NCBI GenBank assembly: GCA_937902985.1
Contig: CALFNG010000053.1
Location: forward strand, 1 to 37,874
Length of the DNA: 37,874 nucleotides
Direction: 5' to 3'
Origin: an uncultured Myxococcales bacterium
GTDB lineage: Bacteria > Myxococcota_A > Polyangia > Polyangiales > Polyangiaceae
Shown here: positions 1-32,039 of the stretch, piece after piece
Layout: every line of letters begins with the position of its first letter
Numbering within the stretch: position 1 is the first letter of the stretch
Notes under the pieces: model-generated
Database searches by the model: none
What the model saw: only the letters and a program-made list of their open reading frames with translations
Told to the model about the DNA's origin: nothing
Position numbers and translations under genes: made by a program

Positions 1-1246
1 GCCCCCGCCCCCCGCCGCGCCTGTACCGACCGTGACCGCTCCGGCGGTCGTCGTCGCACCGGTGGCTCCGGCTCCTGCGCCGGCTCCTCCCCCGGAGCCG
101 CCTCCTGCTGCCGCTGCGCCTCCGGCCGCGCCGGCGGCTCCCGCCGCCGCCCCTGCCGGCAACTGGTGGGACAAGTTCTCGGCCGATGCCTTCGTGGATG
201 CCTACGGAAACGTCAACTGGAACACGCCGAAGCCCCAGTTCCTCGTCGGCCTGCCCGTTCGCGCCTACGACCAGGTGCAGGGCTTCGCGCTCAACCAGAT
301 CGGCGTCAACGCGGCGTACTCGTCTGACAGCGTCGGCGGCACGGTCAGCCTTCGTTTCGGGCCGGAGGCTCTCCTCTACAACGTTCCGGCCGTCACCAAT
401 GGCACAGCCGACAACTCGTTCGGCATGCAGAACGTTCGTCAGGCCTACGCCACGCTCAAGGCGACCGACCAGATCACGTTCGACCTCGGCAAGTGGGATC
501 AGCCGTTCGGCTCGGAGGTCCCCGACTCGCAGCTCAACTTCTTCTACACGCGAAGCCTGCTCTTCCAGCTCAACCAGCCGGTGTTCTTCACCGGGCTCCG
601 CTTCGACTACGCGGCCTCGTCGATGGTCGATCTCAAGCTGTTCGCGGCGAACGGCTGGAACAACACCATCGACAACAACACCAGCAAGACGTTCGGCGGC
701 CAGCTGATGCTGAAGCCGATGGACAGCTTGATCTTCTACGTCGGCGGCGCGGCGGGTCCGGAGCAGACTGACTTCGCTCCCGCGGCGGGCACGGCCGGCG
801 CCGCCACGATCCCGGGCGCGGACAGCAACTGGCGCGAGATCATCGACCTCGTCGTCGACTACAACCCGACGTCGACGCTGAGCTTCGCGCTCAACGGTGA
901 CTTCGACAACGAGTCCAACTTCGGCGGCAGCACGCAATCAGAGTCGTGGTACGGCGTGAACCTCGGCATCAAGTACGTCGTGGCCGACCCCTTCGCGATC
1001 GCCCTTCGCGGCGAATACTTCGGGGACAATCACGGCGGTATCGTGCCGAGCGATGGCAAGGGCGGATCGGCCGGCGTCGAGTCGGGAACGCTCACGCTCT
1101 CGTACGTCGTGGCGAGCCACCTGACGCTCATGCTCGACAATCGCATCGACATCTCGAATAACCCGATGTTCCCCTCGTTGACGCCAGGCAACCTGGAGAA
1201 GACGCTCTTCACGACCACCCTCGGCGCGATCATCGCGACGAAGTAG
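1..1246 (+). CDS. OmpL-like beta-barrel porin, 5' end outside window
   Basis: The reading frame is open from the first base, so the true start and signal peptide lie upstream; the GTG at 32 is only the first internal start codon. The visible part opens with about 40 residues rich in Ala and Pro (a flexible periplasmic or surface linker), then from NWWDKFSADAF runs about 360 residues of alternating polar/aromatic strands with repeated short Gly/Asn turns. Segments such as LDLGKWDQPFGSE-type strands, the LFQLNQPVFFTGLRF strand and the stretch to the C-terminus match putative beta-barrel porin-2 (OmpL-like) proteins. It should sit in the outer membrane as a diffusion channel; the substrate cannot be read from sequence. 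A hairpin terminator directly downstream separates it from the guanidine locus. Family call is fairly sure, substrate unknown. Confidence 0.8.
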   Translation, partial: PPPPAAPVPTVTAPAVVVAPVAPAPAPAPPPEPPPAAAAPPAAPAAPAAAPAGNWWDKFSADAFVDAYGNVNWNTPKPQFLVGLPVRAYDQVQGFALNQIGVNAAYSSDSVGGTVSLRFGPEALLYNVPAVTNGTADNSFGMQNVRQAYATLKATDQITFDLGKWDQPFGSEVPDSQLNFFYTRSLLFQLNQPVFFTGLRFDYAASSMVDLKLFAANGWNNTIDNNTSKTFGGQLMLKPMDSLIFYVGGAAGPEQTDFAPAAGTAGAATIPGADSNWREIIDLVVDYNPTSTLSFALNGDFDNESNFGGSTQSESWYGVNLGIKYVVADPFAIALRGEYFGDNHGGIVPSDGKGGSAGVESGTLTLSYVVASHLTLMLDNRIDISNNPMFPSLTPGNLEKTLFTTTLGAIIATK

Positions 1247-1269
1247 TCTCGAAACAATCGCAAGTCCCG

Positions 1270-1304
1270 ATCGGGGCGCCGCATTCGCGGCGCCCCGATT
1301 GTCT
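1270..1304 (+). terminator. Rho-independent terminator of the porin gene
   Basis: A perfect 12-bp inverted repeat (1270-1281 with 1288-1299), extended to 13 bp by a C-G pair, closes a 4-base loop and is followed by TGTCTTTT. It lies 24 bases after the porin stop and ahead of the allophanate hydrolase start, so the two genes are separate transcription units. Confidence 0.85.
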
Positions 1305-1345
1305 TTTGTGGCGAAGCCGCCGAGTCCCTTGCTAGTGACGAGGGC

Positions 1346-3187
1346 ATGTCGCTCGCTGAGCTCTCTCTCGCGTTCGAGCCGCTCCGCGCGGCCTACCGCG
1401 CCGGCACGTGCACGCCGCACGACGTCGTCGACGAGGTCGTGGCCCGCATCGATCGCGATCGCGAGCGTATCCAGCACGTGTGGCTCCACCGCGTCGGCGC
1501 CAGCGATCTTCACGCAGGCGTCGATCGCATGCTCGCGCGAGCCGCGTCGGGTCAACCGGCCGCGCTCCTCGGAATCCCCTTCGCCGTCAAGGACAACATC
1601 GACGTCGCCGGAGTGCCGACGACGGTCGCCTGTCCGGCGCTCGCGTACACGCCGCCTGCGTCGGCTCCTGTCGTGCAGCGCCTGATCGACGCCGGCGCGA
1701 TCTTCATCGGCAAGCTGAACCTCGACCAGCTCGCAACAGGCCTCGTGGGCGCTCGCTCGCCCTATGGGACTCCAACGAACCCCTTCAACGCGGCCATGAT
1801 CCCCGGAGGCTCGAGCTCCGGCTCCGGCGTCGCGGTGGCCGCCGGCCAGGTGAGCTTCGCCCTCGGCACCGACACCGCCGGCTCGGGGCGCGTGCCCGCG
1901 GGCTTCAACAACGTGGTCGGCCTCAAGCCCACGCGCGGCGCGCTGAGCACGCGCGGCGTCGTGCCCGCGTGCCGCTCGTTCGACTGCGTGACCGTGTTCT
2001 CGCTCACCGTCGAAGACGCGTGCGCCGTGGCCAACGTCGCCAAGCAATGGGACGCGCTCGATCCGTTCTCGCGCAGCGACGCGCAGGCCATCGAGTTCGA
2101 TCCCACGGCGTCGAAGGGGCCGTGGCGCATAGGCGTGCCCTCGCGCGAGCAGCTCGTCTTCCACGGCGACGAGCAGGCGCGTGCGATGTTCGATGCAGCG
2201 ATCGAGCGATTCCGGGCCCTGGGCTGCACCCTCGTCGACGTCGATCTCGGACCGTTTCGAGGTGCCGGCGAGATGCTCTACGGCGGGGCGTGGGTGGCCG
2301 AGCGGCTCTTCGCCGGCGGCGAGCTCCTCGAGCGCGACCCCGACGCGCTCGTTCCGGTCGTTCGTGACATCATCGCCGACGCCAGGAGGGTGTCAGCGCG
2401 CGACGTCTTCGAGGCCAGCTACCGCCTCCACGCGCTCCGGCAATCTGCCGAGGCCACGTGGCGCACCATCGACGCCATGCTCGTCCCAACGACGCCGACG
2501 ATCTATCGCGTCGACGAGGTCCTCGCCAACCCGCGCGCTCTCAACTCGAATCTCGGCGTGTACACGACGTTCGGCAACCTCATGGACCTCGCGGCGATCG
2601 CCGTGCCGAACGGGTTCCGAGCCGACGGCATGCCCTCGGGCGTGCAGCTCATCGGGCCGAGGGGCAGCGACGCGACGCTCGCCGCCGCCGCGCGCGCGCA
2701 TCACCGCAAGCTCGGCGGCACGATGGGCGCCACCGGACACGCGCTCGTGCAATCCGACACGACCTCGGCCGGCATCGCCGCCTCCGCACGGCACGCCGTG
2801 GTGGTCGTCGGCGCTCACCTGAGCGGCCAGCCGTTGAATCACCAGCTCGTGGGGCTCGGCGGAACGCTCGTTCGCGCCACGGTGACCGCGCCGCGCTACC
2901 GCCTCTACGCGCTCCGCGGGACCGTACCTCCCAAACCGGGGCTCGTTCGCGTGCGCGAAGGCGGCGTGCCCATCGAGGTCGAGATCTGGTCGCTCGACAC
3001 CCGATCGTTCGGCGCCTTCGTCAGCGCGATCGCGCGCCCGCTGTGCATCGGGACGATCGAGCTCGAAGGTGGCACCTTCGCGCAAGGGTTCCTCTGCGAG
3101 AGCGACGCCGTGGCCGACGCGACCGACATTTCGCAGCACGGCGGGTGGCGCGGTTTCCTCAGCCGACAAAACGCTATTTCGGGGTAG
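1346..3187 (+). CDS. atzF: Allophanate hydrolase
   Basis: Hydrolyses allophanate to ammonia and CO2 in the cytoplasm, the last step of guanidine, urea (carboxylase route) and cyanurate breakdown. At 613 residues it has the two-domain length of AtzF/DUR1,2-type enzymes: an amidase-signature domain (about 1-440) and a C-terminal allophanate-hydrolase domain (about 465-600). The catalytic triad is intact: Lys82 in AVKDN, cis-Ser156 at the start of the GGSSSGSG motif, and nucleophile Ser180 in DTAGSGRVPA, with the 74- and 24-residue spacings expected of the family. The ATG at 1346 has a GAGG just upstream. It is encoded ahead of the transporter and carboxylase genes rather than after them, 114 bases from the next gene, so it may have its own promoter or be the first gene of one long operon. 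Confidence is high. Confidence 0.95.
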   Translation: MSLAELSLAFEPLRAAYRAGTCTPHDVVDEVVARIDRDRERIQHVWLHRVGASDLHAGVDRMLARAASGQPAALLGIPFAVKDNIDVAGVPTTVACPALAYTPPASAPVVQRLIDAGAIFIGKLNLDQLATGLVGARSPYGTPTNPFNAAMIPGGSSSGSGVAVAAGQVSFALGTDTAGSGRVPAGFNNVVGLKPTRGALSTRGVVPACRSFDCVTVFSLTVEDACAVANVAKQWDALDPFSRSDAQAIEFDPTASKGPWRIGVPSREQLVFHGDEQARAMFDAAIERFRALGCTLVDVDLGPFRGAGEMLYGGAWVAERLFAGGELLERDPDALVPVVRDIIADARRVSARDVFEASYRLHALRQSAEATWRTIDAMLVPTTPTIYRVDEVLANPRALNSNLGVYTTFGNLMDLAAIAVPNGFRADGMPSGVQLIGPRGSDATLAAAARAHHRKLGGTMGATGHALVQSDTTSAGIAASARHAVVVVGAHLSGQPLNHQLVGLGGTLVRATVTAPRYRLYALRGTVPPKPGLVRVREGGVPIEVEIWSLDTRSFGAFVSAIARPLCIGTIELEGGTFAQGFLCESDAVADATDISQHGGWRGFLSRQNAISG

Positions 3188-3301
3188 CTGCTGGTCGCGC
3201 TCAGCGTCGGGCAGCGGCGGCAAGGCTGCAATCGCGCGCTATTGCCGAAGCGCAAACCAGACGAAACGCGACCGAAACTTGCGCCGGGCCATACATCGGC
3301 G

Positions 3302-4351
3302 ATGGCAAGATTCCTGGTTCCGTTCGCGTTCGTCTTCGCGTTATTCGGCTGTAGCAAAGACAGCCCCGATTCGACTTCAGCGGCGCCGGCAGCACCGGCC
3401 ATGAGCGCCAGCGCCGCAATGTCGGCTCCGACGCCGGCGCCCGCAAAGACCCCGCTGAGGGTGGCGTACAGCGACTGGCCCGGTTGGACCGCGTTCGAAG
3501 TGGGCATTCAGAAGGGTTGGTTCAAGGAGGCCGGCATCGACGTCGAGTTCTCTTGGGCCGACTACGGCGCGACGCTCGACAACTTCTCCGCAGGCAAGGC
3601 CGACGCGGTCATGGTCACCAACGGCGACGCGCTCGTCACCGGCGCGAGCGGCGCCAAGAGCAAGATGATCCTGCTCACCGACTACAGCAATGGCAACGAC
3701 AAGGTCGTCGGCCGGCCGGGCATCAAGTCGTTCAAGGATCTCAAGGGAAAGAAGATCGGCCTCGAGGCCACACTCGTCGAGCACCTTCTCTTCTTGAAGG
3801 GCTGCGAGAAAAATGGTGTCGACCCGAAGACGGTGACGATCGTCGGAACGAAGACCAACGACACGCCGCAAGTGCTGACCACGAAGCAGGTCGACGCGAT
3901 CGCCGCCTGGTACCCGGTGGCGAGCCAGGCGCTCACCGCCGTCCCCGGCTCGACGCCGCTCTTCACCAGCGCCGACGTTCCGGGCCTCATCTACGACGCC
4001 GTGGCCGTCAGCCCGACGAGCCTCGCGACGCGGCACGAAGACTGGGTCAAGTTCGTCAAGGTCTGGTACAAAATCTCGGACTACGTTCGCGACCCGAAGA
4101 CGCAAGGCGACGCGGTGGCGATCATGGCCGCCAAGGCCGGCGCCAAGGTCGAGGAGTACCAGGCCGCGATGCCAGGCACGTATTTCCTCTCGCTTGCCGA
4201 AGCCAAGGCTCACTACAAGAAGGGCGACGGCCTCGACTCGCTCTACGGGTCCAGCAAGGTCGCCAACGACTTCAACGTCACCAACAAGGTCTACAAGGAC
4301 GCTCAGCCCATCGACGAATACATCGATTCGAGCATCGTCGACTCGCTGTAA
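3302..4351 (+). CDS. ABC importer substrate-binding lipoprotein (NitT/TauT type, probably guanidine)
   Basis: Periplasmic binding protein of the importer encoded by the next two genes. The ATG at 3302 is preferred over an upstream in-frame start at 3242 because it gives a clean lipoprotein signal: a short positive start, a Phe/Val/Ala-rich core and the lipobox LFGC, with Cys18 as the lipidated residue. An Ala/Pro/Ser-rich tether follows, then a NMT1/TauA-like domain starting near TPLRVAYSDWPG and including FSAGKADAVMVTNGDAL. This branch is regularly found next to urea-carboxylase-like genes. No convincing ribosome site is seen at the start. The ligand is inferred from context to be guanidine or a related C-N compound; binding residues cannot be assigned without a structure. 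Length (349 aa) is normal. Confidence 0.88.
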   Translation: MARFLVPFAFVFALFGCSKDSPDSTSAAPAAPAMSASAAMSAPTPAPAKTPLRVAYSDWPGWTAFEVGIQKGWFKEAGIDVEFSWADYGATLDNFSAGKADAVMVTNGDALVTGASGAKSKMILLTDYSNGNDKVVGRPGIKSFKDLKGKKIGLEATLVEHLLFLKGCEKNGVDPKTVTIVGTKTNDTPQVLTTKQVDAIAAWYPVASQALTAVPGSTPLFTSADVPGLIYDAVAVSPTSLATRHEDWVKFVKVWYKISDYVRDPKTQGDAVAIMAAKAGAKVEEYQAAMPGTYFLSLAEAKAHYKKGDGLDSLYGSSKVANDFNVTNKVYKDAQPIDEYIDSSIVDSL

Positions 4352-4366
4352 GCGGCGGAGGTCCCC

Positions 4367-5452
4367 ATGGCATCGCTCGCTCCTCGGCCTACGGGAACGC
4401 ATCGCCGGAGTGGCCAGCTCGACCACCTGATCGGCATTCGCAAAGATGTCCCGCCGCGGCTGAGGAGCGTCCTCTTCGTACTCTCGTTCGTCTTGCCGCT
4501 TCTCACGTGGAGCGTCATCTCGTACGTGCCGTTCGTCTGGCACCCGTTCGTCAAGGTCGAGAACCCGGGTTCGGTCTCGTATTTCGAGCCCGGGATGCTC
4601 GTCGAGTGCGACGTCTTCGCCGACGAGAACAGGACCGCGCGCGCCGAAGGCCGAGCCTCTGCCACGGGGTCGCGGGCGAACCCGCTCTATCTGCCGGCTC
4701 CGCACGAGGTCGCGCGTGCGCTCTACGTCGCCTTCAAGACGCCCCCTCGCCTCCCCAGCGAGCCGTGGCTCCACGAGAGCCTCTGGCACAGCATCCAGGT
4801 CATCTTCTGGGGGTTCGCGCTCTCGTCGCTCCTCGGCGTGCCCATCGGCATCCTATGCGGTACGTTCCCGTTCTTCTCCAAGCTCTCGGAGCCGTTCCTC
4901 GAGTTCTTTCGTTACCTGCCGGCCCCCGCGTTCGGCGCCCTGGCCGTAGCCGTGCTCGGCATTTACGACGGGCCCAAGATCGCGATCATCTTCATCGGAA
5001 CGTTCTTCCAGCAGGTGCTGGTGGTGGCGAACACCACGCGCAAGCTCGACCCGTCGCTGCTCGAAGCGGCGCAGACGCTGGGCGCGAACCGCTCGCAGCT
5101 GCTCTTCAAGGTGGTCGTGCCGGGCATCATCGTCGATCTCTATCTCGACATGCGCATCTTGCTCGGTTGGGCGTGGACCTACCTCATCGTGGCGGAGCTC
5201 ATTGGCACGATGTCGGGCATCTCGTATTTCATCAACCAGCAGGCGCGCTACCGCAACTACCAGAACGTCTTCGCCGCGATCTTCATCATCGGGTTCATCG
5301 GCCTCGGGTGCGACGTGATCCTCGGGCAGATCGGCGCGAAGCTCTTCCCGTGGCGCGCGGCGCAGAGCAAGACGCCGGCGACCGCGCTCTTCCGCCGGCT
5401 GGCCGGCGGCAAGAAGGCGGAGCCCGAAGGTCCGACGACGCAACCGGCGTGA
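4367..5452 (+). CDS. ABC importer permease
   Basis: Inner-membrane subunit of the importer, a BPD_transp_1 protein of the nitrate/sulfonate/taurine group. An N-terminal membrane helix (about 34-56) is followed by a roughly 70-residue periplasmic insert containing polar and charged residues (about 57-125), then the five-helix core. The EAA loop that docks with the ATPase is visible at about 233-253 (EAAQTLGANRSQLL, then VPG). The periplasmic insert after helix 1 is longer than in minimal TauC-type permeases and is typical of the urea-carboxylase-linked branch. The start lies 15 bases after the binding-protein stop and the stop 13 bases before the ATPase start, so the three are one operon. Confidence 0.92.
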   Translation: MASLAPRPTGTHRRSGQLDHLIGIRKDVPPRLRSVLFVLSFVLPLLTWSVISYVPFVWHPFVKVENPGSVSYFEPGMLVECDVFADENRTARAEGRASATGSRANPLYLPAPHEVARALYVAFKTPPRLPSEPWLHESLWHSIQVIFWGFALSSLLGVPIGILCGTFPFFSKLSEPFLEFFRYLPAPAFGALAVAVLGIYDGPKIAIIFIGTFFQQVLVVANTTRKLDPSLLEAAQTLGANRSQLLFKVVVPGIIVDLYLDMRILLGWAWTYLIVAELIGTMSGISYFINQQARYRNYQNVFAAIFIIGFIGLGCDVILGQIGAKLFPWRAAQSKTPATALFRRLAGGKKAEPEGPTTQPA

Positions 5453-5465
5453 GGGGGAGACGGTC

Positions 5466-6425
5466 ATGACTTCAGCCGCACACCCCTTGACCCCCGGCTT
5501 GACCCCCACCGGCGCACCGGACGCCCACGCCGACGAGCTGACACTCCCGAGTCACCTCGATCGAGCGCCCGAAGTGCACGCCCGGTTCGAGCGTCTCTAT
5601 CAGAGGCCGGTCTCGCTCGAAGTGGCCGAGCTCGGGCGGACGTTCCACGCGGAGCAAGGGCGCGTCGTCGCGCTCGACCGCATCTCGTTCAAGGCGCACA
5701 AGCGCGAGTTCGTGTGCCTCATCGGCGCCTCGGGATGCGGCAAGTCGACCTTGATTCGCATCCTCGCGGGTCTCGATAGCCCGACTTCGGGCGCCGTGCT
5801 CCTCGACGGTCATGAGGTCCGCGGACCGGGCAGCGACCGAGGCATGGTCTTTCAGGGGTACACCCTCTTCCCCTGGCGGACCGTGCTCGACAATGTCACC
5901 TTCGGGCTCGAGGTCGGCGGAATGTCGGGGCTCAAGGCCAAGCAACAGGCCCGCGAGTGGATCGATCTCGTAGGGCTGTCACGCTTCGCGGGCGCCTACC
6001 CGCACCAGCTCTCGGGGGGCATGAAGCAGCGCGTCGCGATCGCGCGCGCGCTGGCCAATCATCCGCGCATCTTGCTCATGGATGAGCCCTTCGGCGCGCT
6101 CGACGCCCAGACCCGCGCGCAGATGCAGTCGTACCTGATGCAGATCTGGCGGCAGGTCGACATCACGATCGTCTTCGTGACCCATGACCTCGACGAGGCC
6201 ATTTACCTGGCCGATCGAATCGTCGTACTGGGTCCGAACCCGGGGCGCGTGCTCGAGGTCATCGAGGTGCCCGTCCCGCGACCGCGTGAAGTCGGGCAGT
6301 ACCTCTGCGAGTCGTTCCTGGCCACCAAGCGTCACCTCGAGAGCCTGATCCACGGGCAGCGAACCGCGCCCGTGGAGACGCTCCCGAAGTTCAGGCACGA
6401 GTACCCCGATCACGACGTTCAGTGA
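5466..6425 (+). CDS. ABC importer ATP-binding protein
   Basis: Cytoplasmic ATPase that powers the importer. All motifs are intact: Walker A GASGCGKST at 87-95, Q-loop in VFQGYTLFPW, signature LSGGMKQR at 182-189, Walker B ILLMDEP with Asp206 and catalytic Glu207, D-loop FGALDAQ, and the switch His in FVTHDLDEA. It resembles the TauB/SsuB group. The N-terminus has about 50 extra residues before the ABC domain, rich in Pro and His, which could be an extension or could mean that the real start is later. Spacing of 13 bases from the permease gene supports co-transcription. Confidence 0.95.
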   Translation: MTSAAHPLTPGLTPTGAPDAHADELTLPSHLDRAPEVHARFERLYQRPVSLEVAELGRTFHAEQGRVVALDRISFKAHKREFVCLIGASGCGKSTLIRILAGLDSPTSGAVLLDGHEVRGPGSDRGMVFQGYTLFPWRTVLDNVTFGLEVGGMSGLKAKQQAREWIDLVGLSRFAGAYPHQLSGGMKQRVAIARALANHPRILLMDEPFGALDAQTRAQMQSYLMQIWRQVDITIVFVTHDLDEAIYLADRIVVLGPNPGRVLEVIEVPVPRPREVGQYLCESFLATKRHLESLIHGQRTAPVETLPKFRHEYPDHDVQ

Positions 6426-6484
6426 CGCCACTCTGAATCACGAGCGGCATCGCACGCGCCGCGCAATCAACCACGGACAGGGTC

Positions 6485-7207
6485 ATGGCAGCGTCTTCGG
6501 AGCGATTCATCTATCGAGAAGACCTCGCGGCCGGCGGGGGCTGGTCCGGCGTCCTCAAACGGCATCAGATCTTGCGGATCACCGATTCGCTCGGAGGCGG
6601 GAACGTCGCCGCGCTCTTCTACAACCGCGAAGACCCGCTCGAGCGCTACAACATGCCCGACACGCTCAAGGCGCAGTACACCGCCTTCGTCACGCAGGGG
6701 CGCGTCTTGCTGTCGGACATGGGGCGCGTGCTCTGCTCGGTGGTGGCGGACACGTGCGGCTGGCACGACACGCTCACCGGGCACTCCGACTCCTCGCTCG
6801 TGGCCGCGAAGTACGGGCGCAAGCGCTACCAGGAAGCCCGGAACGACTTTCACCGCAACGCGCGCGACAACTTCCTCGTCGAGCTCGGCAAGTACGGCCT
6901 CGGCAAGGCAGACATCGTGCCCAGCGTGAACTTCTTCAGCAAGGTGACCGCCGACGCGGAGGGGCGCTTTGCGTTCGCGCCCGGCCACTCGCGCCCCGGA
7001 TCGTACGTCGAGCTCCGCGCCGAGATGAACGTGCTTGTCGTGCTCGCCGCCGTGCCCCACGCGCTGGATCCGGCGCCGACGTACCTCCCCCGCCCGGTCG
7101 AACTCGTCGTGGTCGCAGGCGATCCGCCGCCGGCCGACGACCCGTGCCGCGTCTCACGCGAAGAGACGAAGCGCGCGTTCGAGAACACCGAGCGCTATTT
7201 CGCGTGA
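6485..7207 (+). CDS. DUF1989 protein, probable carboxyguanidine deiminase subunit (urea carboxylase-associated protein 2 type)
   Basis: A 240-residue DUF1989 protein with family segments [35 protein letters not shown] and a NFFSKV strand before the [13 protein letters not shown] block. Genes of this family travel in pairs between the ABC importer and a urea-carboxylase-like enzyme. Published work on such pairs (CgdA/CgdB) identified them as a two-subunit carboxyguanidine deiminase that converts carboxyguanidine to allophanate and ammonia. Compared with its partner it lacks the Cys-containing C-terminal motif ([12 protein letters not shown]), suggesting that it is the non-catalytic or structural half; that is an inference. 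AGGG lies before the ATG. It follows the ATPase gene by 59 bases. Confidence 0.88.
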
Positions 7208-7268
7208 GACGTCCCGTCGACCCGGACACCCAGGTAGCAACGCAGCCGCAGGTAAAAGCGTGACGGAT

Positions 7269-7913
7269 ATGAGTCTCGTCGAAAGCTCTCTCGACCCGGT
7301 CCGCGCCCTTCGAAGCGAGGTCGTGCTCGCAGGCGAGGCCTGGCTCGGTCGCATCGAGCGTGGCCGCATCTTTCGCATCGTCGACCTCGACGGCAACCAG
7401 GCCGTCGACACCCTCTTCTTCGACGCCGCCGATCCGCGTAACCGCTACAGCGCGGTCGACACGATCCGCGCCCAGGGCAGCCTGTACCTGTCGACGGGCT
7501 CGCGGCTCCTGTCGGGCGACGGGGACCCGTTGCTCACGATCGTGGCCGACACCTGCGGCCGCCACGACACCATCGGCGGCGCCTGCTCGTCGGAGAGCAA
7601 CACGGTGCGCTACGGACACCACACGAAGTCGATGCACAGCTGCCGCGACAGCTTTCTCCTCGCTGCCGCGCGCGCAGGCATCCCGCTGACGAAGCGCGAC
7701 ATGGCGCCGAACATCAACTTCTTCATGAACGTGCCCGTGACACCCGAGGGGGGCCTCACGTTCGCCGACGGCATCTCCGGCGGCGGCAAGTACGTCGAGA
7801 TGCGCGCCGAGACCGACGTGCTGTGCCTCATCTCGAACTGCCCGCAGCTCAATAACCCGTGCAACGCTTACAACCCCACGCCCATTCGCGTCATCGTCTG
7901 GGAAGGCTCCTGA
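7269..7913 (+). CDS. DUF1989 protein, probable carboxyguanidine deiminase subunit (urea carboxylase-associated protein 1 type)
   Basis: Second member of the DUF1989 pair, 214 residues. It shares with its neighbour the VADTCGRHD motif, the NFFMNV strand and the [11 protein letters not shown] block, and also has the C-terminal [17 protein letters not shown] motif rich in Cys that is a hallmark of this subfamily and likely helps form the metal or active site. Expected role with its partner: deimination of carboxyguanidine to allophanate, feeding allophanate hydrolase. The ATG at 7269 is chosen; a GTG at 7260 would add three residues, and anything further upstream overlaps the previous gene without family similarity. 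Only 6 bases separate it from the carboxylase gene. Confidence 0.9.
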
Positions 7914-7919
7914 CGGCCG

Positions 7920-10900
7920 ATGCTCCGCAAAGTACTCGTCGCCAACCGCGGTGAGATCGCCTGTCGAATCCTCAAGACGCTCCGCAAGATGGGGATCGCG
8001 AGCGTCGCCGTGCACTCGGACGCCGACGCCTTCGCGAGGCACGTGCGCGAGGCCGACGAGGCGTTCGGCGTCGGCGGCCCCCGCCCCGCCGACAGCTACC
8101 TTCGGGCCGACGCCATCCTCGAGGTCGCGCGCAAGACGGGCGCGCAGGCCATTCACCCGGGCTACGGATTCCTGAGCGAGCGGGCCGAGTTCGCCGACGC
8201 CTGCGACCGCGCGGGGGTCCGCTTCGTCGGCCCGACGGCAGAGCAGATGCGCGAGTTCGGCCTCAAGCACCGCGCGCGCGAGATCGCCGAGGCGCACGGC
8301 GTACCCCTCTTGCCTGGAACGCCGCTGCTCGCGAACGCCGCGGCGGCGGTCGAGCGCGCGAAGTCCATCGGATACCCCGTCATCTTGAAGAGCACCGCCG
8401 GCGGCGGCGGCATCGGCCTGCGCGTGTGCCGCAGCCCCGCCGAGCTCACCGACGCCTTCGAGTCGGTCGAGCGCCTCGGAAGAGCCAACTTCGGCGAGTC
8501 GGGTGCGTTCCTCGAGAAGTTCGTGGAGCGCGCGCGCCACGTCGAGGTGCAGATCTTCGGCGACGGCAAGGGTGACGTCGTCGTTCTCGGCGAGCGAGAC
8601 TGCTCGGTCCAGCGGCGCAACCAGAAGGTCATCGAAGAGACGCCCGCGCCAGGTCTCTCGCAGGCGACCCGCGAGCGCCTCTTCGACGCGGCGCTCCGCC
8701 TCGGTAAGGCAGTGAACTACCGCTCGGCGGGCACCGTCGAGTTCGTGCTCGATGCGGCGACGCAAGACTTCTACTTCCTCGAAGTGAACACGCGGCTGCA
8801 GGTCGAGCACGGCGTCACCGAGTCGGTCACCGGCATCGACCTCGTCGAGTGGATGATCCTCGAGGCCGGCGGCGCGCTGACGCCCACGCCGGTCGTCCCG
8901 AGCGGCGCCGCCATCGAGGTGCGCCTCTATGCCGAAGACCCGGCGAAGAACTACCAGCCGAGCACCGGGACGCTCATGGAAGTGAGCTTCGATCCCGAAG
9001 CGCGGGTCGACGGGTGGGTCGAGCCGGGCACCGAGGTCACGCCCTTCTACGACCCGCTGCTCGCGAAGGTCATCACCCGGGGCGCGACCCGCGACGAGGC
9101 GCTCGACGCCATGGACCGCGCGCTCTCGCGCACGCGCATCGCAGGCGTCGAGACCAACCTCGCGTACCTGAGGCAGATCCTGATGAACCCGGCGTTCCGG
9201 AGCGGCGACCTGTCCACCAACCTCCTCGCCGGGGTGCCCTATGAGTCGAGCGCGATCGACGTCGTCGACGGCGGCACGCAGACCACGGTGCAAGACCTGC
9301 CCGGGCGCGTCGGGTGGTGGTCGGTAGGCGTGCCGCCGTCAGGCCCGATGGACGACCTCGCCTTCGCCACGGCGAACGGCGTCGTCGGCAACGCCGACGG
9401 AGCCGCCGGTCTCGAGATGACGCTCATGGGACCCACGCTCCGCTTCCGCGCGCCCACGGTGGTCGCGCTTGCTGGCGCGCGAATGACGGCCACCCTCGAC
9501 GGCGCGCCCGTCCCGTACCTCGAGCCGGTGCGCGTGTCGGCGAGTCAAGAGCTGAAGCTCGGGGGCATCGATGGGCCCGGGTGCCGCACGTACCTCGCGG
9601 TTCGCGGCGGCCTCGACGTGCCCTCGTACCTAGGCTCCAAGGCCACGTTCATGCTCGGCCGCTTCGGCGGTCACGGGGGCCGCACGGTCCGCGCGGGCGA
9701 CGTGCTGCGCGTCGAGACGCACGGCGCGAACACCGCGGATCGCGCGGTCTCCGTTGGGCTCGGCTTCAGCCTGCGTCAGGCCACGCTGCCGGCGTATCCG
9801 GCCATCTGGGAGATCGGCGTCCTCGACGGCCCGCACGGCGCTCCAGACTTCTTCACGGAGGGCGACATCGACGCGCTCTACGGGGCGACCTGGCAGGTCC
9901 ACTACAACTCCGACCGCACCGGCGTGCGCCTCATCGGTCCGAGGCCCCAGTGGGCGCGCCGCGACGGCGGCGAGGCGGGCTTGCACCCCTCGAACATCCA
10001 CGACAACGCCTACGCCGTCGGCGCCATCGACTACACGGGCGATATGCCGGTCATCCTCGGTCCCGACGGGCCGAGCCTCGGCGGCTTCGTCTGTCCGGTG
10101 ACCATCGCGCGCGCCGAGCTGTGGAAGGTGGGGCAGCTCAGGGCGGGCGATCGCCTGCGCTTCGTCCCGCTCACGGACGAAGATGCCGTTCGCCGGAACA
10201 CGTCCAGGTACGACGCTTTGCCCGCGGTCTCCGTGCAGCCGGCGCCGAGCTCCGCCGCGACGGCCTCGTCGCGGCAGCCTCCTATCCTCGGCGATACGAA
10301 CCCCGAGGGGGGCGACGATCGCATCGTGTACCGCCGCGACGGCGACGACAACCTGCTCGTCGAATACGGGCCGCCCGTACTCGACCTCGGCCTCCGGCTG
10401 CGCGCGCACGCGCTTATGCAGGCGCTCGAGCGCCTGGCGATCGACGGGATCCTCGATCTCACGCCCGGCATCCGGTCGCTGCAGATCCACTACGACCCCA
10501 GGACCCTCTCCACCCGCGAGCTCCTGGCGCTCCTTCACGGCATCCAGCGCGATCTCCCGCGCCTCGAAGAGATCGTGATCCCGACGCGCGTCGTGCACCT
10601 TCCGCTGTCGTGGGAAGACCCGGCCACGCTGCTCGCGATCGAGAAGTACACGCGGTCGGTGCGCCCCGACGCGCCCTGGTGTCCGAGCAACATCGAGTTC
10701 ATTCGCCGGATCAACGGCCTGCCGAGCGTCGACGATGTTCGCCGTATCGTGTTCGACGCGAGCTACATCGTCCTCGGCCTCGGCGACGTGTACCTCGGCG
10801 CGCCCGTGGCGACGCCGCTCGACCCGCGCCACCGCCTCGTGACCACGAAGTACAACCCAGCGCGCACATGGACGCCCGAGAACGCCGTCGGGATCGGAGG

Positions 10901-11540
10901 CGCGTACCTCTGCGTCTATGGAATGGAGGGCCCCGGCGGGTACCAGTTCGTGGGCCGCACGATCCAGATGTGGAACACGCATCGCTCGACGGAAGACTTC
11001 CGCGACGGCAAGCCGTACCTCTTGCGCTTCTTCGACGAGATCCGCTTCGAGCCCGTCTCGGCCGCCGAGCTCCTGCGTCTTCGCGAGTCGTTCCCCTACG
11101 GCAAGACGCATGTGCGCATCGACGAGAGCTCGTTCCGCTACAGCACCTACAAGAGGTGGCTCGACGCGAACGCGCCGTCGATCGCGGCCTTCAAGACTGG
11201 CCGGCAAGCGGCCTTCGAAGCCGAGCGCGAGCGCTGGCGCGCCGCGGGCCAAGACGTGGTCTCGACGACCGTCCCGCCAGCGGCCGACACCGCCGAGCGA
11301 ATGACGGTCCCCGACGGGTGCTCCGCGGTCACGAGCCCCATCGCAGGGAGCGTGTGGAAGCTCTCGGCCGACGTGGGCGTCGCGGTCAGGGCGGGCGATC
11401 CCGTGGTCATCATCGAGGCGATGAAGACCGAGATCGTCGTCGCCGCGAGCAGCGCGGGGACGGTGCGGAGCTTTCTCGTCGAGCCGGGGGCCACCGTCAC
11501 GCCGGGGCAGATGATGGCGTTCATCGAGGATGCTGTCTGA
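7920..11540 (+). CDS. Biotin-dependent guanidine/urea carboxylase
   Basis: A 1206-residue single-chain carboxylase in three parts. Residues 1-450 are a biotin carboxylase (VANRGEIACRI start, ATP-grasp STAGGGGIGLR, LEVNTRLQVEHGVTE). Residues 450-1110 are the carboxyltransferase made of fused KipA-like (from TTVQDLPGRVGWW) and KipI-like parts. The C-terminal 75 residues are a biotin carrier with the biotinylated Lys1169 in EAMKTE. It carboxylates an amide-type nitrogen using ATP and bicarbonate. The adjacent DUF1989 pair argues for guanidine as substrate rather than urea. Asp704 in the segment AIDYTGDMP may be the carboxyltransferase residue that differs between guanidine (Asp) and urea (Asn) enzymes, but this needs an alignment. 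It ends the operon and acts in the cytoplasm. Confidence 0.93.
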   Translation: MLRKVLVANRGEIACRILKTLRKMGIASVAVHSDADAFARHVREADEAFGVGGPRPADSYLRADAILEVARKTGAQAIHPGYGFLSERAEFADACDRAGVRFVGPTAEQMREFGLKHRAREIAEAHGVPLLPGTPLLANAAAAVERAKSIGYPVILKSTAGGGGIGLRVCRSPAELTDAFESVERLGRANFGESGAFLEKFVERARHVEVQIFGDGKGDVVVLGERDCSVQRRNQKVIEETPAPGLSQATRERLFDAALRLGKAVNYRSAGTVEFVLDAATQDFYFLEVNTRLQVEHGVTESVTGIDLVEWMILEAGGALTPTPVVPSGAAIEVRLYAEDPAKNYQPSTGTLMEVSFDPEARVDGWVEPGTEVTPFYDPLLAKVITRGATRDEALDAMDRALSRTRIAGVETNLAYLRQILMNPAFRSGDLSTNLLAGVPYESSAIDVVDGGTQTTVQDLPGRVGWWSVGVPPSGPMDDLAFATANGVVGNADGAAGLEMTLMGPTLRFRAPTVVALAGARMTATLDGAPVPYLEPVRVSASQELKLGGIDGPGCRTYLAVRGGLDVPSYLGSKATFMLGRFGGHGGRTVRAGDVLRVETHGANTADRAVSVGLGFSLRQATLPAYPAIWEIGVLDGPHGAPDFFTEGDIDALYGATWQVHYNSDRTGVRLIGPRPQWARRDGGEAGLHPSNIHDNAYAVGAIDYTGDMPVILGPDGPSLGGFVCPVTIARAELWKVGQLRAGDRLRFVPLTDEDAVRRNTSRYDALPAVSVQPAPSSAATASSRQPPILGDTNPEGGDDRIVYRRDGDDNLLVEYGPPVLDLGLRLRAHALMQALERLAIDGILDLTPGIRSLQIHYDPRTLSTRELLALLHGIQRDLPRLEEIVIPTRVVHLPLSWEDPATLLAIEKYTRSVRPDAPWCPSNIEFIRRINGLPSVDDVRRIVFDASYIVLGLGDVYLGAPVATPLDPRHRLVTTKYNPARTWTPENAVGIGGAYLCVYGMEGPGGYQFVGRTIQMWNTHRSTEDFRDGKPYLLRFFDEIRFEPVSAAELLRLRESFPYGKTHVRIDESSFRYSTYKRWLDANAPSIAAFKTGRQAAFEAERERWRAAGQDVVSTTVPPAADTAERMTVPDGCSAVTSPIAGSVWKLSADVGVAVRAGDPVVIIEAMKTEIVVAASSAGTVRSFLVEPGATVTPGQMMAFIEDAV

Positions 11541-11547
11541 GAGCCAT

Positions 11548-11567
11548 CCCGGGTGTCCCCCGGGTTT
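11548..11567 (+). terminator. Possible weak terminator after the carboxylase gene
   Basis: CCCGGG at 11548-11553 can pair with CCCGGG at 11559-11564 over a 5-base loop, followed by only TTT. It starts 7 bases after the stop codon. The position is right but the short U tract makes it weak. Confidence 0.3.
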
Positions 11568-11586
11568 GGTGGGGGGTTGCCGGAGT

Positions 11587-11649
11587 CGTAGGTTCAGATC
11601 CCGGGCCCGCAACTCGACTTTCCGACCCAAGAAATTCAAGGGGTTGCGG
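11587..11649 (+). other. tRNA-3'-end-like sequence with inverted repeat (possible old attachment site)
   Basis: GTAGGTTCAGATCC at 11588-11601 resembles the T-arm and T-loop of a tRNA, although the usual A at loop position 58 is G here. It is followed by an acceptor-like stretch and then CCGCAAC (11607-11613), which is repeated inverted as GTTGCGG (11643-11649). No full cloverleaf can be built upstream, so this is not a working tRNA gene. It looks like the 3' fragment left at an integration site, but no integrase is present. Nothing else is recognised in the 217 bases between 11541 and 11757. Confidence 0.3.
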
Positions 11650-11757
11650 AGGCATGGGTCCCGTTCACGTCCGCGATCACCGTCGGCTGGAGGTAACGGC
11701 CGAGCTGGCACTCGCCGTTTTCGTGACAAGCCGGCGTGAGCATGGGAGGGTCAGGTC

Positions 11758-11949
11758 ATGGCGCAAACCGGTCAGCCGGCCAGAGTGCTCACGAGGAACC
11801 GCGTCGCCGTGCCGCCCGATCTCGCCGAGGAGCTTCGGCAAGCCGACGAGGACTTCGAGCGTGGCGACTACATCGAGCTGACCGTCGAGCAGCTTGATCG
11901 CTGCATTGCGACGGGAGAGTCGCCGTGGCCCGACGAGTCCCCCGGCTGA
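11758..11949 (+). CDS. Small antitoxin-like protein
   Basis: A 63-residue acidic protein preceded by a good GGAGGG ribosome site at 11745-11750. It has no clear DNA-binding motif, but the alternating charged middle (ELRQADEDFERGDYIELTVEQLD) is typical of small antitoxin or toxin-neutralising partners. Its 3' end overlaps the next gene by 25 bases, and that gene looks like a RelE/ParE-fold protein, so a toxin-antitoxin pair is the best reading. No family can be named from sequence alone. It sits just after a tRNA-like scar, a common place for such cassettes. Confidence 0.6.
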   Translation: MAQTGQPARVLTRNRVAVPPDLAEELRQADEDFERGDYIELTVEQLDRCIATGESPWPDESPG

Positions 11950-12209
11950 GCACCACGTTCCGCCGCCGCCTGGACACGCTCGGAGTTCGAGCAGGCACCA
12001 GGGAATACCGCGCGGTTTTCGCAACGATCAGCGCGCTGGAGACCGGCGCGTTGCCCGGCGCTGCCGATCACGAGACCGAGTTCTCGCCGGGGCGCGCCTA
12101 TGTGCGGCGCGTCGCCGGGCACAACCTCTGGATCCCTTACCGATTCGACGACGACCACATCTTCGTCATGACGGCGCGCGGCCAACCACCGGTTCCACTC
12201 GACGAGTAG
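11925..12209 (+). CDS. RelE/ParE-like small protein, possible toxin
   Basis: A 94-residue protein starting at a GTG with GGGAG 7 bases upstream, overlapping its partner gene by 25 bases. The pattern is an N-terminal basic helix (VPRLSTTFRRRLDTL), a second helix and a C-terminal beta segment (RAYVRRVAGHNLWIPYRF, then HIFVMTARGQPP). This agrees with the RelE/ParE toxin fold, in which the last strands end in a basic/aromatic motif. If real, it would act on mRNA at the ribosome or on gyrase; the sequence does not tell which. No catalytic residue is claimed. Confidence 0.6.
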   Translation: MARRVPRLSTTFRRRLDTLGVRAGTREYRAVFATISALETGALPGAADHETEFSPGRAYVRRVAGHNLWIPYRFDDDHIFVMTARGQPPVPLDE

Positions 12210-12328
12210 CGCGCGTCGCCGGTCAGCCGGTTTCGAGCGTCGTGTCCGACTCGGGGAGCATGTCGCGCGCCGATGATCGTCCAGTTGGAACCGCCATCGA
12301 CGACGCGAACTCCGCCCGCTCCAAGCTA

Positions 12329-13921
12329 TTAGAGCGATGAGAGCGACTTCGAGCCGTACTTCATCGCGGCCTGGGCCTGGTCGCGGCAGTCGTCGGGGGT
12401 GGCGTCTCGGAGGGAGAGCTTCACCCTGGCGTAGTGGGCGACGGAGACACAGATGGCGTCGACGCCCAGGCCGGTGAGGACGCGGGCGCCCCGGGGATCG
12501 GCGGCCAGCTCGCCGCAGCAACTGACCTTTCGGTCGTGCGCGTGAGATCTCGCCACGACGCGTTCGACCATCCGCAGCATGCGAACGTCGAACGAGAGGC
12601 TCGAGCGCGCGCGATCCTGTCCGGTCACGCTGGCGGAGAGGTCGTTCGTGCCGATGGAGATGAAGTCGGCCGCGGCGGCGATCGCGTCGATCTGATCCAC
12701 GGCTTCCGGCGTCTCGATCATGGCGCCGACGGGCACCTTGCCGCCGCTGAGCGCGCGGATCCGCTCGACGTCACCGGCGCAGGTGACCATCGGCAGGAGC
12801 ACACGCATCGACGCCTGCTCCGCCGCCCGCACGACCGCGCGGAGCTGAGCGGCCAGCACGTCGGGGTGCATGAACAAGAGCGATACGCCGCGCGCCGAGG
12901 GCGCATGCGCGGGGGCAGGCAGCCACGCGAGCGGTTTGTCGCCTCCCCCGTCGAAGAGGCGCACCACGACGACGGGGTTGCCCGCGTTGCCCGCGATTGA
13001 GCGTAGCGTGGCGAGCTGCTCGAACTCGCTCGGGGCCGACGTGTGATCCAAGAACAACACCTCGGTGCGAACCAGGCCGATGCCCTGGGCAGACGAGGGG
13101 ACGCGCTCGTAGACGGAGCCGAGGCTGACGCGTACCTCGAGACCGAGCTGCGAGACGGGAGACCTGGCGACCGCCGCCTCTTCTTCGGCGCGCCCGAGCA
13201 CCCAACGCGCCTGGCGTCGGCGAGCGTCGACCACGACCCCTTCGCTCGGAGCGACCCAGAGCCACGAGACATTGCCGGTCGTGTCGAGGACCACGGGGTC
13301 GTCGTCGGCGATCCCGTTGACGACGGTCGCGGGCAAGAAGGCGAGCGGGATGGCCCGACCGCGCGCGATGACCACGGCGTGCGAGGTGCCTTCGCTCCCG
13401 ATCGCCGCGGCGTCATCGGACGTGGCGACGATCCCCACGATCTGCGGCGGCAGCGACGCGACGACCGACGGCGTGAGCGCTTCGGTGACGAGCACGCGGT
13501 CGCCGTCGCGACCCTCGAGCAGCGACCGCACCGAGCGGTGATCGTGGGCGAGCGCGTCCAGCAGGCGCGCGCGCGCGTCGAGCAGCAGGTCCGTCGACAC
13601 CTGCGCCGTGGCATCGCAGACCGCATCCTCCGCGGAGGCTCCCGCGTCGACCTGCGCCAGCATGAGCGGACCGAGCTCCTCGAGGATCGCGATCTCCGGC
13701 AAGAAGAGCTCGGCCTCCGCGAGCGGCAAGATTCGCACGAGCTCCTCGACGCCACGCGTCGCCCACCTGTGGGCGCGCAGGAGGCGACACCGCTCTTCTT
13801 CGGCCGTGCCCGCCTCGCGGCGAGGCTCCGGATCGCTACCCCAGATCGCGGCACGCCCGATGGCGATGCCGTCGACCGCGGGCGAACCCTGGTACGGGGG
13901 GAGCGAGGGCCCGGAATTCAT
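12329..13921 (-). CDS. ptsI: PTS enzyme I homologue (phosphoenolpyruvate-protein phosphotransferase)
   Basis: A 530-residue protein with the enzyme I order: an N-terminal GSPAVDGIAIGRA segment, helical HPr-binding-like region, phosphohistidine domain with His181 in EGTSHAVVIAR, then the PEP-binding barrel with GIGLVRTEVLFLD (Arg285, Glu287), GAMIETPEAV, ISIGTNDLS and the catalytic Cys469 in CCGELAADP. It should take phosphate from PEP to His181 and pass it to HPr. It is about 45 residues shorter than Escherichia coli enzyme I and weakly conserved at its N-terminus. No HPr or enzyme II gene is present here, so it may serve a regulatory PTS with partners elsewhere. It is the last gene of a leftward group that begins with the isochorismatase-like gene. 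Confidence 0.85.
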   Translation of the reverse strand: MNSGPSLPPYQGSPAVDGIAIGRAAIWGSDPEPRREAGTAEEERCRLLRAHRWATRGVEELVRILPLAEAELFLPEIAILEELGPLMLAQVDAGASAEDAVCDATAQVSTDLLLDARARLLDALAHDHRSVRSLLEGRDGDRVLVTEALTPSVVASLPPQIVGIVATSDDAAAIGSEGTSHAVVIARGRAIPLAFLPATVVNGIADDDPVVLDTTGNVSWLWVAPSEGVVVDARRRQARWVLGRAEEEAAVARSPVSQLGLEVRVSLGSVYERVPSSAQGIGLVRTEVLFLDHTSAPSEFEQLATLRSIAGNAGNPVVVVRLFDGGGDKPLAWLPAPAHAPSARGVSLLFMHPDVLAAQLRAVVRAAEQASMRVLLPMVTCAGDVERIRALSGGKVPVGAMIETPEAVDQIDAIAAAADFISIGTNDLSASVTGQDRARSSLSFDVRMLRMVERVVARSHAHDRKVSCCGELAADPRGARVLTGLGVDAICVSVAHYARVKLSLRDATPDDCRDQAQAAMKYGSKSLSSL

Positions 13922-14448: not shown

Positions 14449-15030
14449 TCAGCCCTTCTGAATCGCTTCGGTCACTTCGCTGGCGGGGAGCACGTTCGCT
14501 TGCCGCGGGAGGACCTTGTCGATCAACACGCGATGCACCTCTTGATCGCGGTCGGCGCAGCAGTCTTCGACGACGATGAGCCGGTAATCAGCGTCTGCGC
14601 CGTGGCGCACGGTCGAGAGAATCACTCCGCTCGTTGCGATGCCGAGGAGGATGAGCGTCTCGGCCCCATTGGTGCGCAGGATCATCTCAAGGTCCGTGCC
14701 GGCGAAGGCGCTCACCCGGTGCTTCACCACGACGACGTCCCCCTCTTCGGGACGGACCGCGGGCGCGATGTCCGAGCCGGGGGTCGCGACGACGAAGCGG
14801 CCGCTCTTGGAGACCGCCGCGAAGGTCGCGTTGCGCGGACTGAGCTCCGGGTAGCCGGGCCGAAAACCCACCACGACGTAAATGACGGGCAGGTGGGCCT
14901 TTCGGGCCGCGGCGACCACGCCCGCGGTGCGCTCGAGCACCAGGGCGGCCTTCTCGCCGAGCACCCCGACGATGTCGGATTGAAGATCCATGACGAGCAA
15001 GGCGCTGCGGTTCGGTTCAACGGCGATCAT
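14449..15030 (-). CDS. Isochorismatase-fold hydrolase-like protein lacking the catalytic Cys
   Basis: A 193-residue protein of the isochorismatase/cysteine-hydrolase superfamily. Asp15 (VMDLQSD) and Lys103 (VVKHRVSAF) of the usual Asp-Lys-Cys triad are present. The loop that should carry the nucleophile reads GIATSGVILST, so the Cys position is Val136 (Gly135 by a one-residue shift). True isochorismatases also replace Cys, so the protein may act by acid-base hydrolysis of a vinyl ether or have another role; it should not be called a nicotinamidase. The start ATG follows GGGAGC. It heads a leftward group with two small genes and the PTS enzyme I gene. Substrate unknown. Confidence 0.82.
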   Translation of the reverse strand: MIAVEPNRSALLVMDLQSDIVGVLGEKAALVLERTAGVVAAARKAHLPVIYVVVGFRPGYPELSPRNATFAAVSKSGRFVVATPGSDIAPAVRPEEGDVVVVKHRVSAFAGTDLEMILRTNGAETLILLGIATSGVILSTVRHGADADYRLIVVEDCCADRDQEVHRVLIDKVLPRQANVLPASEVTEAIQKG

Positions 15031-20578: not shown

Positions 20579-22185
20579 CTGACCGCACCCTCGTTCGTTC
20601 CCCGTACCCGCGCGCCTTCGGTCTCGCGGTGGGCGCCCTCGCGCACGTCCGCGTCGGCCACTGGGACGGCGCGCTCCGCCGCGTCAAGGAGGTGCAGGAG
20701 GCGACCCTCGGCGCGCTGCTGCGCCACGCGCGCGGCACCGAGTTCGGCCGGATGCATGACTTCGACGGCGTTCGCGACCACGACGGCTTCGTCCGCCGGG
20801 TCCCCATCGGCGACTACGATACCTTCTCGGCGGGCATCGACCGCATGCGGAAGGGCGAGCGCAACGTGCTCGTCCCCGAGGTCGTACGCTATTTCGGCAA
20901 CTCATCGGGCAGCTCGAACCACGGGAAGTCCAAGTTCTTGCCCATCACCGACCGGCAGATCCGCTTCCAGCAGCGGGCGGGCGCCGACACCGTGATGCGC
21001 TACCTGCAGCGCTCGGGCGATCGCGATCTCTTCTCGGGCTTCACCCTGGGCCTGTTCCCGCCCACGACGATGAAGCCCGAAGGGACTTCGTTCGTGACGT
21101 CGAACCCGGCGCTGATGGCCACGAAGATGCCTCGCGTCACGCGCCCGGTGTACCTGCCCGAAGACGACGTGCGCGCCGTCGCCGATTACGACGCGAAGCT
21201 CGGCATGATGGCCGAGCGCTACCTCGACCACGACGTCCGCGCGGCCACGGGCACCACCTGCTGGTTCACGCTCCTGTTCGAGAAGGTGCTCGCGACCGCC
21301 AAGCGACAGGGCCGCGCCGCCCGCACGATCGCGGAGATCTGGCCGAACCTCCGGGTGCTCTTCGGCGGGGGCGTGACCGCTGCGCCTTACCTCCCCGTCA
21401 TCCGCAGGCTGGTCGGGCGCGACGACGTGACGCTCGTCGACACCTACAACGCGACCGAGGGGGGCGTCTACGCGGCGTCCGACTTCTCGGGCGCGCCCGG
21501 CATGCTCGTGCTCCCGCACCGGGGGGTCTTCTTCGAGTTCGTCCCCCTCGAATCCCGCGAGGAGGCGAGCCCGGCGCGCGTGCCGCTCTGGAGCGTGGAG
21601 CGCGAACGCCCTTATTCCATCGTCGTGACCACGGCGTCCGGCCTGTATGCCTACGAGCTGGGCGACATCGTCCGCTTCTCTTCGGTGGCTCCGCCGCGCA
21701 TCGAGTTCGTCGGGCGGCTCGGCGGCTGCCTCTCGGTCACGCAGGAGCTGACGACGCATGTCGACATCGAGCGCGCCGTGGCCAGCGCGGCGCGCTCGTG
21801 CGCGTGCACGACCGTCGATTTTGGCGCCGCGGCAGACGTCGGCGTCGAGGGCTCGGCGAAGTCGCGTTACGCGCTCTTCGTCGAGTTTCAGAAGGGCGCC
21901 GAGCCCGTCGACCTCGGGGCCTTCGCCGACGCGTTCGACGCTGGGCTGTGCGAACAGAACCGCGTCTACCGCGAGCACCGGCGAGGGGTCGTCGCGCTGC
22001 TGCCAGCGCTCGTCGTCCCCCTCGCGAGCGGGGGCGCGCGCCGGTTCCTCGAGGTGGTCACGCGAGGCAACGTGCAGGGCAAGTTCCCTCGCATCGTCGA
22101 CGATACGCAGAAGCAGCTGCTCTGGGAGCACGCGGCAGCGCCGCGGGCCGGCCAGGGAGCTCCACTCAGTCAGGAGCCGTCATGA
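20575..22185 (+). CDS. GH3-family acyl-acid amido synthetase
   Basis: A 536-residue adenylate-forming enzyme of the GH3 family, best known from plants where it joins jasmonate or auxin to amino acids. ATP-binding motifs are visible: SSGSSNHGKSK (110-120, including Lys118 and Lys120), YNATEGG (291-297) and YELGDIVRF (360-368), followed by a hinge and C-terminal domain. It should activate a carboxylic acid with ATP and form an amide with an amine. In this operon the amine could be the amino group installed by the aminotransferase; the acid is unknown. The ATG at 20575 overlaps the oxidoreductase stop, and its own stop overlaps the next ATG. Open frame upstream of 20575 is not homologous and is ignored. 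Confidence 0.9.
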   Translation: MTDRTLVRSPYPRAFGLAVGALAHVRVGHWDGALRRVKEVQEATLGALLRHARGTEFGRMHDFDGVRDHDGFVRRVPIGDYDTFSAGIDRMRKGERNVLVPEVVRYFGNSSGSSNHGKSKFLPITDRQIRFQQRAGADTVMRYLQRSGDRDLFSGFTLGLFPPTTMKPEGTSFVTSNPALMATKMPRVTRPVYLPEDDVRAVADYDAKLGMMAERYLDHDVRAATGTTCWFTLLFEKVLATAKRQGRAARTIAEIWPNLRVLFGGGVTAAPYLPVIRRLVGRDDVTLVDTYNATEGGVYAASDFSGAPGMLVLPHRGVFFEFVPLESREEASPARVPLWSVERERPYSIVVTTASGLYAYELGDIVRFSSVAPPRIEFVGRLGGCLSVTQELTTHVDIERAVASAARSCACTTVDFGAAADVGVEGSAKSRYALFVEFQKGAEPVDLGAFADAFDAGLCEQNRVYREHRRGVVALLPALVVPLASGGARRFLEVVTRGNVQGKFPRIVDDTQKQLLWEHAAAPRAGQGAPLSQEPS

Positions 22186-24823: not shown

Positions 24824-25130
24824 GGCGCGTCCTCGAACAGGCTGCGGGCTGGCTCCCGGCGGTCTTCGGCCCACCGCGCGTTCACATGAGCGCGTTCACG
24901 TGAGCGCGGCGGTTCACTTCGGCTGCGGAGCGCCGTCGGCATTGGGTTGTAAATCCAGCGCTGGGCGGCTGCTCCCGCCCTGGCCGGTGCCCGGGCTTCC
25001 GAGCTCACCGAACCCTTCAAAGCTTTTCGTGAAGGCTTTCCCGGCGTTCGGCCAAAACAGGCAGGCGGGAGCGCGGGCGCCTGGATTTCGGAGGCGGAAT
25101 CGTCGATGACGGAGGAGAGACACCCGAGGG
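24824..25130 (+). promoter_or_regulatory. Intergenic region before module B
   Basis: 307 bases separating the aminotransferase stop from the module B barrel gene. They hold a tandem 14-base repeat (24876-24903) and a GGAGGAGAG stretch shortly before the ATG at 25131. No convincing -10/-35 pair or terminator is seen. It presumably contains the module B promoter, with the operon upstream possibly reading through. Confidence 0.35.
24876..24903 (+). repeat. Two tandem 14-base copies of GCGCGTTCACRTGA
   Basis: Copies at 24876-24889 and 24890-24903 differ only at one A/G. The second contains the perfect 8-base palindrome TCACGTGA, and a third partial copy (GCGCGG then GGTTCAC) follows. Spacing is slightly more than one helical turn. 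It could be a regulator binding site ahead of module B; there is no direct proof. Confidence 0.5.
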
Positions 25131-27723: not shown

Positions 27724-27729
27724 TCGCGA

Positions 27730-28374: not shown

Positions 28375-28430
28375 CGTACACCGCAGGTTTATTCGCTCGA
28401 GAGCGCCGATTCCTTCAACGCGCGCCCGCG

Positions 28431-28457
28431 AAAAAAAGCTCGGCCGGCATCGACCGA
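28431..28457 (-). terminator. Terminator-like hairpin in the leader of the 27730-28374 gene
   Basis: On the minus strand TCGGTCG pairs with CGGCCGA over an ATGC loop (7 bp including one G-T pair), then GC and seven T. It is a textbook intrinsic terminator shape, but it lies 57 bases upstream of the ATG at 28374 with no obvious minus-strand gene before it. It may be an attenuator or may block antisense reading from the right. Confidence 0.5.
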
Positions 28458-28556
28458 CTGACGCCCTGAGCTCGGCCACTCGAACGACGCGGCGCCATCG
28501 CGCCCGCCGGCGCGAGGATTCGCACGCCGATCTCCCGTTCGCTATAGAACGCGGCC

Positions 28557-29348: not shown

Positions 29349-29375
29349 GGGCGGTCGGGCGACGCCCGCTGGTCG

Positions 29376-29655: not shown

Positions 29656-29659
29656 CCCC

Positions 29660-30445: not shown

Positions 30446-30565
30446 TGAATCTCCTCGATGAGGCCCGTTGGAGGCGCGGTCCGAGCCTACCATCGGGCCG
30501 TCGCCCGTGTGGCGAACGGCCGCGCGTGTAGTCGAGCCCATGCGGCCTTCAGTTCGGCCCGCGAG

Positions 30566-30994: not shown

Positions 30995-31078
30995 CGACGT
31001 GCTGTAGGTCCTCGAGACCAGCAGGTCAAACGCGGGCGGACCGGCCGTGATGGCGACGTGACCGACCGTCGTCCAACG

Positions 31079-31955: not shown

Positions 31956-32039
31956 GCGCTTTTCGTAGCACTTCGCGGCGCGCTCGGTCGCGATTCCGTC
32001 GGCATCGCAATCTGCGAGGTGTCACATCCCGATGTCCCG

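Follow-up and report, generated by a model that had tools for sequence, protein, structure and literature searches.

In Pseudomonas syringae, Raoultella, Klebsiella michiganensis and Vreelandella boliviensis, excerpts of three papers (PMC11410670, PMC12186494, PMC12508155) describe gca, cgdAB and atzF together with an ABC importer. The excerpted methods of PMC11410670 require Asp at position 1584 of the carboxylase and use Asp at position 1330 (K. lactis numbering) to tell guanidine carboxylases apart from urea carboxylases; the same rule, with Asp denoting guanidine and Asn denoting urea, is given in an excerpt of the review PMC12186494. Urea amidolyase (K. lactis; bacterial uca-atzF-urtABCDE) has a carboxylase and an allophanate hydrolase homologous to those described below, but it has Asn at 1330, a Urt importer and no DUF1989 pair, whereas the present locus has Asp and the pair. 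Among the literature matches listed, no paper joined guanidine carboxylase, carboxyguanidine or a guanidine riboswitch with Myxococcota, Sorangium or Polyangia.

We analyzed a 37,874-nucleotide stretch of DNA from an uncultured Myxococcales bacterium (contig CALFNG010000053.1), hereafter the window. As judged from its sequence, the segment 1346-11540 is very probably a guanidine assimilation operon. Its seven plus-strand genes lie head to tail and form one pathway's set, consisting of an allophanate hydrolase, a three-gene ABC importer, two DUF1989 proteins and a biotin carboxylase. The features are as follows.

1268-1301, + strand: strong intrinsic terminator (15 pairs), between the upstream porin gene and the operon
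1346-3187, + strand: atzF-like allophanate hydrolase, 613 aa, with amidase (PF01425) and AH_C (PF21986) domains
3302-4351, + strand: substrate-binding lipoprotein (SBP), NMT1/SsuA-like (PF09084, PF13379)
4367-5452, + strand: ABC importer permease (PF00528)
5466-6425, + strand: ABC importer ATPase (PF00005)
6485-7207, + strand: cgdA, predicted carboxyguanidine deiminase subunit, DUF1989 (UAAP1; TIGR03425, PF09347)
7269-7913, + strand: cgdB, predicted carboxyguanidine deiminase subunit, DUF1989 (UAAP2; TIGR03424)
7920-11540, + strand: gca, predicted guanidine carboxylase, 1206 aa (TIGR02712; Pfam domains in order)
10029-10031, + strand: Asp704 codon, K. lactis position 1330 (aligned to 3va7 and 5i8i)
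10785-10787, + strand: Asp956 codon, K. lactis Asp1584 (5i8i alignment)
11424-11426, + strand: Lys1169 codon, biotinylation site in EAMKTE (86 of 87 aligned rows have Lys here and one has a gap)

The intergenic gaps within the operon range from 6 to 114 bases, and the set is separated by the terminator from the porin gene, which ends at 1246; co-transcription of the seven genes is assumed from homologues. The original prediction placed the set at 3302-11540. The plus-strand genes sit as it stated, but its 5' end was short and missed the allophanate hydrolase. This protein scored 724 bits against TIGR02713 (cut-off 511), carries Lys82, GGSSSG at 154 and TDTAGS at 175, is part of the set and supplies the last step of the guanidine pathway. 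The ABC importer would take up guanidinium, the biotin enzyme would use ATP and bicarbonate to convert guanidine to carboxyguanidine, CgdA/CgdB, with the metal site on CgdB, would convert carboxyguanidine to allophanate and ammonia, and the allophanate hydrolase would split allophanate into two ammonia and CO2; all of these reactions and the importer substrate are assigned by analogy with homologues. Compared with the Gca pathway as excerpted above, the operon is alike in having all four enzymes or subunits, the ABC importer and Asp at the 1330 position, and differs in that atzF comes first, no guanidine-I or -II riboswitch was found, and the SBP falls below the TIGR03427 cut-off.

Automated annotation gives these proteins other names, as the original prediction had anticipated. 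Three NCBIfam models call the carboxylase and the DUF1989 pair urea carboxylase and urea-amidolyase-associated proteins, and all four annotated plasmid records that we opened with an Asp-type carboxylase carry the labels urea carboxylase, UAAP1, UAAP2 and putative urea ABC transporter. Taken at face value, the NCBIfam names would make the locus a true urea carboxylase or urea amidolyase operon, a reading that we consider highly improbable in view of the residues, gene content and genome context described below.

The carboxylase scored 1820 bits against TIGR02712 (cut-off 1304), has the domain order biotin carboxylase, carboxyltransferase AB, carboxyltransferase CD and BCCP, and matched the K. 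lactis enzyme (3va7, 5i8i) end to end in a phmmer search with ~1135 bits. It had been guessed in the original prediction that Asp704, within AIDYTGDMP, is the discriminating position, and an alignment had been proposed in which Asn at the true position would speak for urea. In our alignment, Asp704 lines up with K. lactis Asn1330 (5i8i numbering), so that the guess was right about the position and the residue there is Asp. The window enzyme thus combines Asp at 1330 with Asp at 1584, as guanidine carboxylases do, and lacks the Asn1330 of urea carboxylases; by these residues it is predicted to prefer guanidine.

We compared the window with 95 other loci, namely 80 best relatives in named genomes, 6 same-phylum loci (L107-L110, L112 and L113) and 9 plasmid records, the last being those opened among 60 listed from 373 matches in a search with an Asn-type protein; seven duplicate places (L083, L092-L096 and L111) were left out of the count. 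In this sample, which was chosen by similarity and is not an unbiased survey, position 704 was Asp in 91 loci and Asn in 4, and a cgdA-cgdB pair was nearby in 83 of the 91 Asp-type loci versus none of the 4 Asn-type loci. Three Asn-type loci carry urtABCDE and atzF in place of cgdAB. As for the eight Asp-type loci without the pair, L004, L057 and L075 start where their contigs do, and only short stretches were taken for L112 and L113; L030, L061 and L069 have the flank present and still no cgdAB, indicating that Asp and cgdAB do not always go together. When a discriminating column was defined as having one residue in all 4 Asn-type rows and another in at least 90% of Asp-type rows, with the window left out of the definition, the window had the Asp-type residue at all 22 such columns (704 included), although these are not independent, given that all four Asn-type rows come from a single clade.

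The cgdA and cgdB products scored 326 bits against TIGR03425/UAAP1 (cut-off 206) and 325 bits against TIGR03424/UAAP2 (cut-off 285), respectively, and cgdB has an alternative in-frame GTG start at 7260. We took CgdA to be UAAP1 and CgdB to be UAAP2, following gene order. The heteromeric pair adjoins the carboxylase, as in the guanidine pathway, and a urea carboxylase would have no such pair alongside; in a urea operon, cgdAB would be left without a substrate. In an excerpt of PMC12560246, the zinc site of the DUF1989 protein TMAO demethylase consists of three Cys residues, C263, C279 and C343. By spacing and alignment, these map to the CgdB residues Cys107, Cys126 and Cys192, counted from base 7266, whose codons lie at 7584, 7641 and 7839; each was invariant in 84 of 84 aligned rows. 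CgdA lacks the three zinc-binding Cys and has no invariant Cys across its 84 aligned rows. Since the zinc-type Cys are invariant in CgdB and none is invariant in CgdA, we infer that CgdB would be the metal-holding subunit and CgdA a partner without metal.

The importer is a usual, though not universal, member of the guanidine carboxylase pathway, and the Pfam domains of the operon genes include no Urt-type urea importer, which argues against a urea operon. The SBP has a lipoprotein signal ending in FALFGC and homologues of 50-58% identity in other carboxylase/cgdAB loci, and it gave only two weak matches in a PDB search. Its score against TIGR03427 (putative urea ABC SBP), 146 bits under a cut-off of 334, counts against the guanidine reading, as this model is common in such operons.

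The gene set recurs in the family of the window. CgdB was found in 13 of 108 same-family genomes, the window's own counted. Eleven of the others have a readable carboxylase next to cgdAB; together they supply 12 such enzymes, all of them Asp-type. The G354 carboxylase was not readable since its contig ends ahead of the gene. The family yielded a single Asn-type enzyme (L108 in genome G004), which stands with atzF and without cgdAB. Same-family operons (L140, L141, L145 and others) resemble the window, with the order SBP, permease, ATPase, cgdA, cgdB and gca where complete and with Asp at 704; those holding atzF nearby put it last, whereas the window operon has it first, and many have a guanidine-II riboswitch before cgdA, in contrast to the window. 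As a separate observation, the carboxylase match in L110 (G021:C1:1301866-1305678) splits in two inside a single open frame, as if the carboxyltransferase halves were held apart by ~58 additional residues.

Rfam placed the guanidine-II riboswitch directly ahead of cgdA in L107, L138, L141 and L144. In L109 (4599-4795), L140 (8740-8950) and L145 (10585-10800), two GC-rich ACGA-loop hairpins with linkers of 40-42 bases precede cgdA; these were missed by the Rfam model at gathering score, and zero of 5000 resamplings per stretch gave two such hairpins. An excerpt of PMC7544219 gives guanidine-II linkers of 7-40 bases. Scanning revealed neither a guanidine-II riboswitch nor paired ACGA hairpins in L110, L137, L143 and L146, and the Rfam scan alone revealed no guanidine riboswitch in L142; L139 was left out of these same-family scans. 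Of the independent lines of evidence for guanidine, the strongest is that relatives in this family have a guanidine sensor in front of these very genes.

The window itself had no Rfam riboswitch at gathering score and none on 900-12400 at E up to 10, and a hand scan of 1-12000 on both strands for ACGR-loop hairpins of at least 6 pairs found none. Across the assembly, 150 of 222 initial candidates for guanidine-I and 150 of 3824 for guanidine-II were scored, and neither riboswitch was found among them. The gap ahead of cgdA is just 59 bases. Although a guanidine riboswitch is common and not defining, the failure to find one in the window or, among the candidates scored, elsewhere in the assembly counts against the guanidine reading, and its lack in the window is in keeping with a urea operon. 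However, the missing element is not unusual, as 8 of the 13 named loci that were scanned (out of the 80) likewise gave no guanidine riboswitch hit at gathering score. It is conceivable, though rather doubtful, that the operon of this lineage dropped the riboswitch, that an unlinked guanidine-sensing protein serves as regulator, and that atzF moved forward, which would put the whole set under one promoter.

The own genome (96% completeness) contains two DUF1989 genes, one full-length carboxylase and urease alpha; no SMR exporter gene and no arginase-family protein, and hence no guanidinase of that family, were found in it. As urease is present, a urea carboxylase would be redundant. A full-length carboxylase was absent from the two other same-genus genomes, one of which is just 77% complete. 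In a quick 96-row LG tree, the window enzyme stood beside a set containing the Asn-type clade (support 85), a placement that favors the urea reading and counts against the guanidine one; in a mixture-model tree of 44 rows, the enzyme was not grouped near that clade. Horizontal transfer was considered in view of that absence and because the window row did not group with same-family rows in the free trees, but a constraint joining it with 8 same-family rows was not rejected (p-AU 0.745), and neither tree showed the source of the window's copy. In the 96-row tree, carboxylases of L031, L034 and L070 (titled Pedobacter, Nitrospira and Mycobacterium) fell among proteobacterial, Nitrosomonadaceae and Azospirillaceae rows, reflecting either transfer or mis-binned or misnamed records.

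As improbable as the urea reading is a pathway devoted mainly to methylguanidine or another guanidino compound larger than guanidine, with its first step encoded elsewhere: an extended operon with mgdH/mgdL is described for Vreelandella in an excerpt of PMC12508155 and an isochorismatase-family hydrolase lies 3 kb downstream (14449-15030, - strand), but the seven operon genes include no dioxygenase or lyase, and the isochorismatase gene is on the opposite strand with mixed best PDB matches. This protein was considered as a candidate guanylurea or biuret hydrolase, but of its 44 PDB matches the best were a biuret hydrolase and, with a similar E-value, a putative isochorismatase. Elsewhere in the window, 12329-13921 (- strand) encodes a diverged PTS enzyme I-like protein (PEP-utilizers_C, 171 bits; N-terminal and mobile domains weak), and 6 of 6 longer open reading frames tried in 20905-35615 had no Pfam match, some of which may not be genes.

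Taken together, Asp704 and Asp956, the agreement at 22 of 22 columns, the adjacent cgdAB, the same-family Asp-type carboxylases and riboswitches, and the urease in the genome argue for guanidine, supporting the original prediction that the substrate is guanidine and not urea. The operon represents a known, already published pathway that is correctly relabelled here, not a new system, and it opens no long-standing question. It shows that the one-residue rule agrees with gene context beyond the well-studied proteobacteria, too, and that names referring to urea are still misleading when attached to Asp-type carboxylases or to DUF1989 pairs. In the family of the window, the 13 genomes with CgdB add probable guanidine users that are few and patchily distributed.
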